Shown one piece after another: positions 21,827 to 37,565 of a stretch of DNA of 40,552 bases. Position 1 is the stretch's first letter. Every line of letters begins with the position of its first letter. The position numbers and the translations under genes are program-made. This DNA comes from Deltaproteobacteria bacterium (GTDB lineage: Bacteria > Myxococcota_A > Bradymonadia > REDH01): positions 1 to 40,552 of the forward strand of contig JABMMX010000056.1 in assembly GCA_013205435.1 (NCBI GenBank), given 5' to 3'. The notes under the pieces are model-generated. The model searched no databases. It was not told the DNA's origin and worked only from the letters and a program-made list of their open reading frames with translations.

Positions 21827-23173
21827 CTAGCGGAGGAGGTACCAGGCGATCGCGGCGAGGACCAGGACCGTCGCGATACCTGCCACCCAGAGGACCGCGT
21901 TGTCGCGGCGGACGGGCGCTGGCTCACGCGATTCGCTCCGTTCTGGCGCTGCCGCCTGCGCTTCGCGGCGCGCGGGCTCACGCTGCCCGGGATGGGACTC
22001 CACCCGTGGCACCGCCCCCGTCTGGTAGCGCTTGGTCTTCTCCGGTGCCGGCATTTCGGTTTTGGCATGCGAGAGGTCTGCGGCGCTGTAGGCAGTCCGA
22101 GTGCTGGAGGAATCAGGCACGACGCTCTCGGGGCCCATGAAGAGGGTCTCGTTGGAGGCGGGGGGCGCCGGGGCAGGCGCGGGGGCGGGGCGGGGCGGGG
22201 CCGCCTTGGGCTCCGCTGGCTTCACAGCCGCCACGGCCGCTGCTGCGGCCTGCTCGAGCCACTCCGAAGACATCAACAGAGTACCGGCCGAGGTCGCGGG
22301 CGGCGCGACGGGCACAGGCGCTGCAACAGGCGGCGGCGCAGAGGCTGCGCTCGCCAGCCTTGCCTCTGCCCGCGCGGAGGCCTGCTGCTGCTCCTCTTCC
22401 AACGCAGCAAGAGCCGCAGAGCGGGCGTCGGCAGAGATACCCGCGGTAGCGGCAAAGGCAGCATCGACCTCGTCGGGCTCAGATGGATCCTCCATCTCAG
22501 CCTCCTCGCTGACGGCGCTGAGGCTACTCGTCACCTGCCCGAGAACGTTCGAGAGCGGGTCGGGCTCAGACGCCTGCTCCAACTCAGCCTCGACGCCGGC
22601 GGCGTTGAGGCTGCTCGTCACCTGCCCGAAAACGCTCGAGAATGCATCGCCCAAATCATCTGCATCGAAGAGCATCGTTGCACTGCTCTGCGCCGGCACG
22701 GAACTCTCGGTTACGCCTGCCTCCACGACAGACTCAGGCTCAGACGCAGGCGCAGGTTCCTGTTGGACCGCAGCCTCTGGCACGGGCGCCGCCTCCGCTT
22801 CGCCGCTGAGGAGTTTGTCGAGGTCGCCGAAGTCGGCGAGGGTCATCAGCATCGTACCGTTGGCCGGAGGCTCGTTGCTGTCTGCCGGAGCAGGAAGCAC
22901 GGGCGCAGCAGCGGTCGAGCCACGCTGGCGCGGCGGAGGAAGCGGAGCTGACCGCTGCGTCACATGCTTCGGTGCAACCTCGGCTGCACCCGTAACTCGC
23001 TCCTCCACCGAGGCGATGGCCGCATCGAGCTGCGCAAGTTCATCGGCTCCGAAGGAGAGCCCCACCATCGTCCGCTCTCCGGCAGCGGCCGGCCTGTCTG
23101 TCGGCGGCGCCTCCGTGCTCTCGAGCGGCAGTCCGGGCAACCCAAAAACCGTCTTCTCATTTTCGCTGGCCAC
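21827..23173 (-). CDS. Tail-anchored low-complexity scaffold-like protein with repeated Thr motifs
   Basis: The function is not recognised. This 448-residue protein is acidic and Ala/Pro/Glu-rich, without a signal peptide, and ends in one membrane helix (about residues 427-446, NAVLWVAGIATVLVLAAIAW) that would leave the bulk in the cytoplasm. Short motifs around a Thr followed by hydrophobic residues recur at Thr8 (KTVFGLP), Thr35 (RTMVGLS), Thr107 (GTMLMTL), Thr166 (ATMLFDA), Thr298 (GTLLMSS), Thr343 (ETLFMGP) and less clearly Thr360. A 24-residue unit is repeated at 182-205 and 211-234. The GTG at 23173 has GGAG 8 nt upstream. It lies between a small protein gene upstream and the lipoprotein downstream in one operon. 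Confidence 0.82.
   Translation of the reverse strand: MASENEKTVFGLPGLPLESTEAPPTDRPAAAGERTMVGLSFGADELAQLDAAIASVEERVTGAAEVAPKHVTQRSAPLPPPRQRGSTAAAPVLPAPADSNEPPANGTMLMTLADFGDLDKLLSGEAEAAPVPEAAVQQEPAPASEPESVVEAGVTESSVPAQSSATMLFDADDLGDAFSSVFGQVTSSLNAAGVEAELEQASEPDPLSNVLGQVTSSLSAVSEEAEMEDPSEPDEVDAAFAATAGISADARSAALAALEEEQQQASARAEARLASAASAPPPVAAPVPVAPPATSAGTLLMSSEWLEQAAAAAVAAVKPAEPKAAPPRPAPAPAPAPPASNETLFMGPESVVPDSSSTRTAYSAADLSHAKTEMPAPEKTKRYQTGAVPRVESHPGQREPARREAQAAAPERSESREPAPVRRDNAVLWVAGIATVLVLAAIAWYLLR
22472..22630 (-). repeat. Imperfect tandem duplication inside the scaffold gene
   Basis: Two 72-bp units (22559-22630 and 22472-22543), 87 bp apart start to start, encode FGQVTSSLNAAGVEAE... and LGQVTSSLSAVSEEAE..., each ending SEPD. 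The DNA is also clearly similar, so the duplication is fairly recent. Confidence 0.75.
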
Positions 23174-33943: not shown

Positions 33944-35365
33944 ATGCATGTCGAATGTCCCAAGTGCGGAAGTCTGTGTCGCGTTGCAGACGAGGCTCTC
34001 CCGGAGGCTGGCGCCAATCTCCGGTGCGGCTCCTGCACGAATGTCTTCTTCGTTGCAGCCGACGCCGCTGGTTCCGTTCGCGTCGTCCAGGCCTCCGCCA
34101 GCGGCAACTATCCTGCAGCGGCAAGCGCCGAAGCCACCATCACGGGCAGCCTGCCCGCGACCACCTCCTCGCCGGCCATGACCGGCACAGCGCGAGCGAT
34201 GACCGGCGTCTACGCCGCCATCTCCGGCCTCGGAAACGAGGCCTCGACCGATGCCGCTCAGCCCGCCCTTAGCTCCGGCTCCGGGCCGCGTGTCGCGATC
34301 GACCCGCGCCTCACCGGCTCCACGGCAACGCTTCAGCCGCCCAGCGAATCCGACGTGGTTCCACCGCAGGGCGCTTGGCAGATTCGCGGCACAGACAGCA
34401 TGGTCTTCAACTTCATCGATGCTGGCGATGTGCAGATCTGGCTCAGCCGCCGCGACTCCCACGAGGGGCTCAGCGCATCGAACGATGGCGGCAAGGTCTG
34501 GAGCAACGTCGCCGACCTTCCCTACTTCGCCAAGGTCCTGGCCGCCGGCAAGCTCGGTGGCCGCCGCACAGGTGTAACGAGCGCCATCCCCCGCGCCACC
34601 GGCTCCTTCCAGAGCGTAGGCCCGCGCAGCGGCTCCGCGCCCGCGCTGTCCGGCAACGCACCGGCCGTTACAGGCGCGCAGCCTGCCGTCACCGGCAGCC
34701 AGCCCAAAGTCAGCAGCAGCGTCCTGCCCGTCACCAGTCTCGGCAACACGGGCGCGCATCCCGCCGTGACGGGCAGCAACCCACGCGTCACGGGCGCGCA
34801 GCCCGCCGTCACCGGCAGCAACCCACGCGTCACGGGGAGCAACCCGGCCATCACGGGCTCCATGCCCGCGATCCCTGTCGACAAGAAGGCCGCGGCAGCC
34901 CGTCAACAGGCCATCTTCGGGCTCATCGCCCGCCTTGTCGTTCTCATCGTCGTGGTCGGCGCGGGCTACTACGCCTACGACGCAATGTATGCCGAAGAGG
35001 TCCTCGAAATCCCCAATACCCCGGCCGGCGACAAACTCCGCTGGACCATGGCCGTCTTCAACCAGAAGCGCGGCGAAGTGACCGAGGACGAGATTCTGAA
35101 GAACTTCTCGCCCGAGGTCACAAGCAAGGTCACGCCTGCTGCATTGGTCGAGAACTTCATCTTCCTTGGTCGACAGAACGGATTCTACGAACTCATCTCG
35201 ATCGAAGAGGGTGCCACAGACCACAGCCTCATCGCTGTCATGCGGACCACCAACCTCAGCCTCGTCGAGCTCCGCATCACCACAGAGAACAAGCCCCCCT
35301 TCAGCTTCAAGTCGCTGGCCTTCGAAGAGACCAAGCGGCGTCCGAAGGGCTCGGGCTTCAACTAG
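33944..35365 (+). CDS. MJ0042 zinc-finger / GYF-like / transmembrane fusion protein
   Basis: This 473-residue protein has an N-terminal zinc ribbon (CPKC at 5-8 and CGSC at 28-31). Next are a Thr/Ser/Ala-rich linker, a small domain at about 144-200 (GAWQIRGTDSMVFNFIDAGD... WSNVADLPYFAKVL) that recalls GYF_2-like domains of deltaproteobacterial regulators, and a repeat region at 238-310 built from (A/S)(Q/N)P(A/R)VTG. One membrane helix follows (about 325-346). The last ~115 residues (PNTPAGDKLRWTMAVFN to SFKSLAFEE) resemble the N-terminal domain of Orf12-type serine hydrolases without any hydrolase part. Topology should put the zinc finger in the cytoplasm and the C-terminal domain in the periplasm. 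Function is unknown. GGAGAAAAG precedes the ATG. Confidence 0.82.
   Translation: MHVECPKCGSLCRVADEALPEAGANLRCGSCTNVFFVAADAAGSVRVVQASASGNYPAAASAEATITGSLPATTSSPAMTGTARAMTGVYAAISGLGNEASTDAAQPALSSGSGPRVAIDPRLTGSTATLQPPSESDVVPPQGAWQIRGTDSMVFNFIDAGDVQIWLSRRDSHEGLSASNDGGKVWSNVADLPYFAKVLAAGKLGGRRTGVTSAIPRATGSFQSVGPRSGSAPALSGNAPAVTGAQPAVTGSQPKVSSSVLPVTSLGNTGAHPAVTGSNPRVTGAQPAVTGSNPRVTGSNPAITGSMPAIPVDKKAAAARQQAIFGLIARLVVLIVVVGAGYYAYDAMYAEEVLEIPNTPAGDKLRWTMAVFNQKRGEVTEDEILKNFSPEVTSKVTPAALVENFIFLGRQNGFYELISIEEGATDHSLIAVMRTTNLSLVELRITTENKPPFSFKSLAFEETKRRPKGSGFN
34655..34873 (+). repeat. Degenerate 24-bp tandem repeats coding xxPxVTGS units
   Basis: About nine copies of an 8-residue unit, such as GAQPAVTG, GSNPRVTG and GSNPAITG, lie in a row. 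Two copies of GSNPRVTG have identical codons, so part of the array expanded recently. Similar TG turns also occur earlier in the protein (ITGSLPA, MTGTARAMTG). Confidence 0.8.
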
Positions 35366-36600: not shown

Positions 36601-36644
36601 ACACGCTTGTGGTAGACGCAAGAGAGCCAAGCCGCGAGGTGATT

Positions 36645-37565
36645 GTGTCGACCGAGAACGCCAAACAGACCCGACAGATCACGCTTGTCCGCTCCATCAC
36701 GCTGCCCGGGCAGGAGCAGAAGTTTGATGCCTGCCTGCTCGGTCTTTCGGGCCGTGACATGGGCCGCCGCTTCCTGCTCGCCCAGCGAAAAATCACCATC
36801 GGACGGTCCGAGCAGGCCGACGTCACCATCGATGACGACGACGCGTCGAGGCTCCACTGCGAGATCATCGCGCATCCCGCAGGCGTGATGCTCCAAGATC
36901 TCCAGAGCACCAACGGAACCAAGGTCAACGGCCAGCGGGTCGCGCAGCAGCTGCTTGTCGACGGCGACCAGATCCAGATTGGCGGTTCGGTCTTCCGCTT
37001 CACGCGCGCGAACCACGTCGAGGCCCACTACTTCGACGAGATGTTCCGCCTCACGAACACCGACCCGCTCACGGGCGTCTATAACAAGCGCTACTTCCTG
37101 AGCATGCTCGAACGCGAGCTCGCCCGCGCGGAGCGATACAGGCGTGAATCCGCGGTCCTCATGCTCGACCTCGACTTCTTCAAGAAGGTCAACGACACCT
37201 TCGGCCATGTCGCAGGCGATGCCGTGCTCGTGGAGGCGGCGAAGCGGATCGGGGCTGAGCTAACAAGCGAAGACCTGTTGGCCCGGTTCGGCGGTGAAGA
37301 GTTTGTGGTGCTGCTCGACCAGACCACGCTTGCCGAAGCGGCGCTGGTGGCAGAACGCATCCGCGCCAGCATTGCCGCCTCGCCCATGCTCCACGCGGGC
37401 GCGACGATCCCCGTTACCACCTCCATCGGTGTGAGCGGCCTGCAGGAGGTCGCAGGCGGAGACGACGCTGCCTCACGCACGCAGCGGGTCGAGGCGCTCC
37501 TCACCCTTGCCGACACCAAACTCTACGAGGCCAAAAATGCAGGTCGAAATCGCGTCGTTGTCTAG
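36645..37565 (+). CDS. FHA-domain diguanylate cyclase
   Basis: This 306-residue cytoplasmic protein should make cyclic di-GMP and be controlled by binding a phosphothreonine partner. The FHA domain (about 45-120) has ITIGRSEQADVTI, ASRLHCEI and QSTNGTKVNG, which keep the Arg, Ser and Asn that contact phosphothreonine. The GGDEF domain (about 138-306) has DPLTGVYNKRYF, DLDFFKKVND and an intact active site RFGGEEF (216-220). The product-inhibition site RxxD is changed to TSED (207-210), so feedback may be absent. I chose the GTG at 36645 since GCGAGG lies 5-6 nt upstream. The 3' end overlaps the next gene by 29 bp. Confidence 0.94.
   Translation: MSTENAKQTRQITLVRSITLPGQEQKFDACLLGLSGRDMGRRFLLAQRKITIGRSEQADVTIDDDDASRLHCEIIAHPAGVMLQDLQSTNGTKVNGQRVAQQLLVDGDQIQIGGSVFRFTRANHVEAHYFDEMFRLTNTDPLTGVYNKRYFLSMLERELARAERYRRESAVLMLDLDFFKKVNDTFGHVAGDAVLVEAAKRIGAELTSEDLLARFGGEEFVVLLDQTTLAEAALVAERIRASIAASPMLHAGATIPVTTSIGVSGLQEVAGGDDAASRTQRVEALLTLADTKLYEAKNAGRNRVVV

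Follow-up and report, generated by a model that had tools for sequence, protein, structure and literature searches.

Which function can be assigned to a membrane protein that ends in the N-domain of a clavulanate enzyme but lacks the hydrolase that usually follows it? The question is raised by P0001, a 473-residue ORF (33944-35365, + strand; ATG at 33944, stop at 35363-35365) in a window of 40,552 nucleotides of contig JABMMX010000056.1 from a Deltaproteobacteria bacterium. The original prediction of a zinc finger, a GYF-like domain, repeats and an Orf12-like domain in one membrane protein was confirmed by domain searches and structural models. From the N-terminus, and all on the + strand, P0001 comprises an MJ0042-type zinc ribbon (33944-34051, residues 1-36, with Cys 5, 8, 28 and 31), a divergent GYF-like domain (34364-34558, residues ∼ 141-205) in which VFNF replaces the GPY/GPL motif, a heptad-repeat linker of the type xxPAVTG(S) on the cytoplasmic side (34619-34876, residues 226-311), a single transmembrane helix (34910-34966, residues ∼ 323-341) and a periplasmic, NTF2-like ORF_12_N domain (34988-35362, residues 349-473; Pfam 356-448). 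The helix (323-341) has a Kyte-Doolittle value of 2.5 and is flanked by DKKAAAARQQ on its N-terminal side and YDAMYAEEVLE on its C-terminal side. The Lys and Arg residues before the helix and the acidic residues after it point to an N-in/C-out orientation, with the ribbon and GYF-like domain in the cytoplasm and ORF_12_N in the periplasm. ORF_12_N-beta-lactamase proteins of the phylum read as lipoproteins, in keeping with a periplasmic ORF_12_N. P0001, which comes from freshwater delta-proteobacteria, is thus predicted to cross the inner membrane once, with ORF_12_N facing outward and two cytoplasmic docking modules that resemble those of known scaffolds for polarity and motility. Across the four genomes of the genus, ω of the P0001 segments is mostly 0.02-0.15; one value for the transmembrane segment is 0.47, from 33 codons. 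Nearly all segments are under purifying selection within the genus.

The ribbon scores above the cut-offs of both PF13717 (37.7 bits) and TIGR02098 (30.6 bits), and its cysteines are invariant across 17 aligned proteins. Pfam searches for GYF and GYF_2 gave no match in P0001 as a single sequence or in its close relatives; canonical GYF_2 was detected by Pfam in L059-like proteins only. A profile of the P0001-type domain aligned by hhalign to the canonical GYF_2 set gave a probability of 89.5%, compared with 0.6% for the control. When the AlphaFold model of the domain (pLDDT 81) was compared with the PDB using Foldseek, the leading matches were GYF domains (Smy2, GIGYF2 and Myxococcus GltJ, 7z3c), individually weak with E values of 0.14-0.5. 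An alignment of 19 proteins shows no variation at F157, W166 or R170 and very little at W145. Taken together, the profile match, the model matches and the conserved residues make homology to GYF likely. Classical binding of proline-rich peptides by this domain is doubtful, since the GP[YF]/GPY motif is replaced.

P0001 holds the sole ORF_12_N of its genome assembly. The domain exceeds the cut-off of PF18042 (28.1 versus 26.7 bits), and that of the orthologue in a second genus (G005) reaches 39.7 bits. AlphaFold modelled the 125 C-terminal residues as four helices followed by four strands (pLDDT 88, pTM 0.81). The first four Foldseek matches of this model in the PDB are all Cpe/ORF12 (TM 0.63-0.68), and the Cpe/ORF12 N-domain accounts for 10 of the first 12 (TM 0.60-0.68, probability 1.00), with 2xh9, 2xf3 and 2xep (TM 0.64-0.68) among the top matches; SnoaL/NTF2 proteins come next. 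A phmmer search of PDB sequences with the P0001 C end alone gave no match, and the family profile ranked Cpe first (E 0.012). The anticipated Orf12 N-terminal fold was thus recovered in the model. It had also been proposed that an Orf12-like domain normally stands ahead of a serine hydrolase and that this hydrolase is missing here. The usual arrangement is supported, with a following serine hydrolase of the beta-lactamase family borne out by Pfam for four proteins (L042, L044, L049 and L053), and ORF_12_N is indeed the end of P0001. The constraint on the domain equals that on the ribbon (ω 0.02-0.09).

Residue identity within the linker is 0.50 at lag 7, whereas no lag exceeded 0.28 in 5000 shuffles, and TRF finds tandem repeats in the DNA too. 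The description of the linker as recently expanded holds in part: two of the three congeners have one heptad fewer in a linker that otherwise shows conservation, so the array changes length, but slowly. The repeats barely pass PF21300 (30.9 versus 30 bits) and match 3ult (E 0.003). We judged this to be a match of periodicity and rejected an ice-binding beta-roll, because the linker is placed in the cytoplasm and carries a proline in nearly every heptad. Heptads of the xPAVTG type also make up linkers in other, unrelated proteins from the class (the Ser/Thr kinases L008 and L012, and L016), some of them kinases with a transmembrane helix, and are possibly a common linker type or a phospho-acceptor array. 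Beyond the neighbouring hydrolase gene P0002, the window encodes an FHA-GGDEF protein, a diguanylate cyclase (36609-37562, +). FHA domains bind phospho-threonine and the P0001 linker is rich in Thr; there is no evidence linking the two proteins. Elsewhere in the window (22472-22641), two tandem 87-base units that are 84% alike lie within a long ORF.

P0002 (35362-36525, − strand) is convergent with P0001, and the two stop codons overlap on opposite strands. It encodes a lipoprotein alpha/beta hydrolase of the PAF-AH/DLH/PETase-like kind (PF03403, 34.6 bits; PF01738, 30.2 bits). The original prediction had suggested that the two form a split Orf12-hydrolase system. The genes are adjacent, all four genomes of the genus retain P0002 alongside P0001, and both products are predicted to reside in the envelope. 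However, an alpha/beta hydrolase is the wrong fold class, since ORF_12_N normally precedes a beta-lactamase fold. The linkage is uninformative because synteny within the genus extends over the entire block: the congeners keep every tested neighbour gene as far as their contigs reach. In G005 the P0002 homologue and the ZnR-ORF_12_N gene are unlinked (contigs C61 and C114), and good P0002 homologues are present in five genomes that have no ORF_12_N (G004, G022, G024, G031 and G054). Outside the genus, P0002 homologues were never found beside a ZnR-ORF_12_N gene, the two genes share no neighbours, and P0001 has no conserved gene neighbour. A lack of co-occurrence with the hydrolase is one of the outcomes that the original prediction had named as refuting it. 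On fold, linkage and co-occurrence we rejected a split enzyme pair; the split system is very improbable, and P0002 is probably not part of the P0001 system. In G005 a patatin-like phospholipase gene (L035:14442-16433) directly follows the P0001 orthologue on the same strand and apparently overlaps it; this is a different hydrolase fold, seen in one genome only.

The P0001 architecture is held by two genera only, its own and that of G005; a search of named genomes with P0001 gave matches in its own genus only. ORF_12_N itself was found by Pfam in 7 of 57 genomes of the class (8 with our own profile) and in 13 of 379 genomes sampled across the phylum. Forms without the zinc ribbon are fused to Beta-lactamase2 (four confirmed by Pfam, three more read from sequence), and G027 encodes a stand-alone ORF_12_N lipoprotein with no hydrolase. 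At two further loci (L057 and L058) an ORF_12_N-like domain below the Pfam cut-off lies ahead of an apparent GNAT acetyltransferase. The family's third genus, represented by G004, lacks ORF_12_N, and G005 holds a TPR form (C27), the ZnR-ORF_12_N form (C114) and an ORF_12_N-beta-lactamase (C15). The front of P0001 is widespread: ZnR-GYF-TM-TPR relatives occur across the class, and a paralogue in the same genome (L032) has the same front with TPRs at the back. In a tree of the GYF-like domain P0001 clusters with its family's TPR paralogues (93/97), the pattern that a duplication within that family would produce. The ORF_12_N tree sets it apart, weakly (79/88), from the hydrolase-fused forms; in both trees G005 sits on long branches with weak support. 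Most likely, P0001 arose as a duplicate of the ZnR-GYF-TM-TPR protein found throughout the class, and ORF_12_N came to form its periplasmic end.

We lean towards reading P0001 as a scaffold or receptor of the inner membrane, assembled on this existing ZnR-GYF-linker-TM chassis. The chassis ends in TPRs in most relatives and in ORF_12_N here, and P0001 is retained under purifying selection alongside a normal TPR-type paralogue. By analogy with ZitP and GltJ, the ribbon and divergent GYF-like domain would be docking sites for cytoplasmic partners, and the heptad linker would space them from the membrane. ORF_12_N, tethered in the periplasm and lacking the serine hydrolase that normally goes with it, would bind a periplasmic ligand or protein. 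P0001 would then not be a catalyst; its job would be to hold cytoplasmic partners in position or to gate them, either in response to an envelope component or jointly with it. The orthologue of the same architecture in G005 and the ORF_12_N lipoprotein of G027 that has no hydrolase speak for this reading. The cytosolic part of GltJ binds MglA. A search of the genus's four genomes (own assembly 81% complete, best congener 93%) yielded no Arf-family ORF of MglA size; candidates of this size appear in G005 and G008. The MJ0042-type ribbon of ZitP binds PopZ directly (PMC5182065). PopZ (DUF2497) was absent from nine genomes searched, with a positive Caulobacter control. The scaffold reading is weakened, since neither analogue's known partner applies in the genus: either P0001 has another protein as its partner or the analogy fails. 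Also counting against it are the lack of a conserved neighbour gene outside the genus, the Phe35 that stands in place of ZitP Trp35, the weakly supported position of G005 in the trees and the restriction of the architecture to two genera. A role in anti-phage defence was rejected, as PADLOC gave no hit.

Other readings of P0001 are less probable. NTF2-like folds are commonly pocketed, and ORF_12_N persists under constraint without an enzyme; a periplasmic sensor, in which the pocket binds a small molecule (a cell-wall fragment, a beta-lactam-like compound or a lipid) and signals through the helix to the ribbon and GYF-like domain, is a minority possibility that we regard as unlikely. The clavulanate site of Cpe is lined by the N-domain residues His88 and Lys89, the latter being required in vivo (PMC6478378), but in a low-identity alignment the Lys89 position is Ser or Asn in P0001 and its congeners. 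The Cpe pocket is, moreover, shared with the beta-lactamase-like domain that P0001 lacks, and no known output domain (kinase, GGDEF or HTH) is present in P0001. A bolder and clearly tentative version, which we consider unlikely, would make P0001 a transmembrane receptor that arose by domain capture. The Cpe-type NTF2 domain, having parted from its hydrolase, would sense a ligand in the periplasm and be coupled by the single helix to the ribbon and GYF docking modules, which would place a polarity-type scaffold under the control of a signal from the envelope. That the ZnR-GYF chassis carries different ends (TPR, ORF_12_N, AgmX/TonB-like) would also suit a fortuitous gain, with ORF_12_N merely a folded anchor and all function cytoplasmic; since the domain is as constrained as the ribbon, we consider this improbable. 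P0001 might instead act in trans as accessory subunit of an exported Beta-lactamase2-family protein, either C393, a LysM lipoprotein, or C60. These are the only two such proteins of the genome, both lack ORF_12_N, and both have KAG for the KTG motif, as Cpe does; they lie on contigs unlinked to P0001, however, and in the phylum ORF_12_N and enzyme are fused in cis, which leaves a subunit in trans quite improbable.

The scaffold reading draws on proteins to which P0001 is related in parts. GltJ/AgmX of Myxococcus gliding shares the N-terminal MJ0042 ribbon, GYF domain, linker, single transmembrane helix and periplasmic end, and its GYF domain is among the leading structural matches given above. 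We rejected membership of P0001 in GltJ, because it scores 16.3 bits against NF033761 (cut-off 450) and is without the AgmX/TonB-like C end. Better GltJ-like ribbon-GYF_2 proteins are encoded in the same genome (C84, L059; C172, L060), though no MglA-sized Arf-family ORF was found there. ZitP, the Caulobacter bipolar zinc-finger protein, likewise has a single transmembrane helix and a periplasmic C-terminal domain, and its ribbon cysteines (5/8/28/31) occupy the same positions as those of P0001 (PMC5182065). It has no GYF domain, however, and carries DUF3426 in place of ORF_12_N; ZitP binds PopZ through Trp35 and a basic patch, and P0001 has Phe35 instead of Trp35, along with Ala24 and Arg27. 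Identity with a ZitP/PopZ system was rejected, as no PopZ turned up in the nine genomes searched. Functional analogues of P0001 are GltJ and ZitP, but it belongs to neither.

At the other end, P0001 has ORF_12_N in common, by sequence and fold, with Cpe/ORF12 of clavulanic acid clusters (2xep, 2xh9) and with the ORF_12_N-beta-lactamase lipoproteins. It differs from Cpe, which is itself cytoplasmic (PMC6478378), in having no beta-lactamase-like domain, in carrying ORF_12_N at the C-terminus behind a transmembrane helix and, apparently, in Lys89. The ZnR-GYF-TM-TPR proteins of the class have its cytoplasmic chassis, with periplasmic TPRs instead of ORF_12_N. P0001 is a new and unusual domain combination from known parts, probably a variant ZnR-GYF membrane scaffold rather than a split enzyme. 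It shows that the membrane chassis of ribbon and GYF domain, familiar from GltJ, can carry more than one kind of periplasmic end, and that the N-domain of Cpe, the clavulanate enzyme, can exist without its hydrolase; if ORF_12_N binds a ligand, P0001 would be a clean place to find it.
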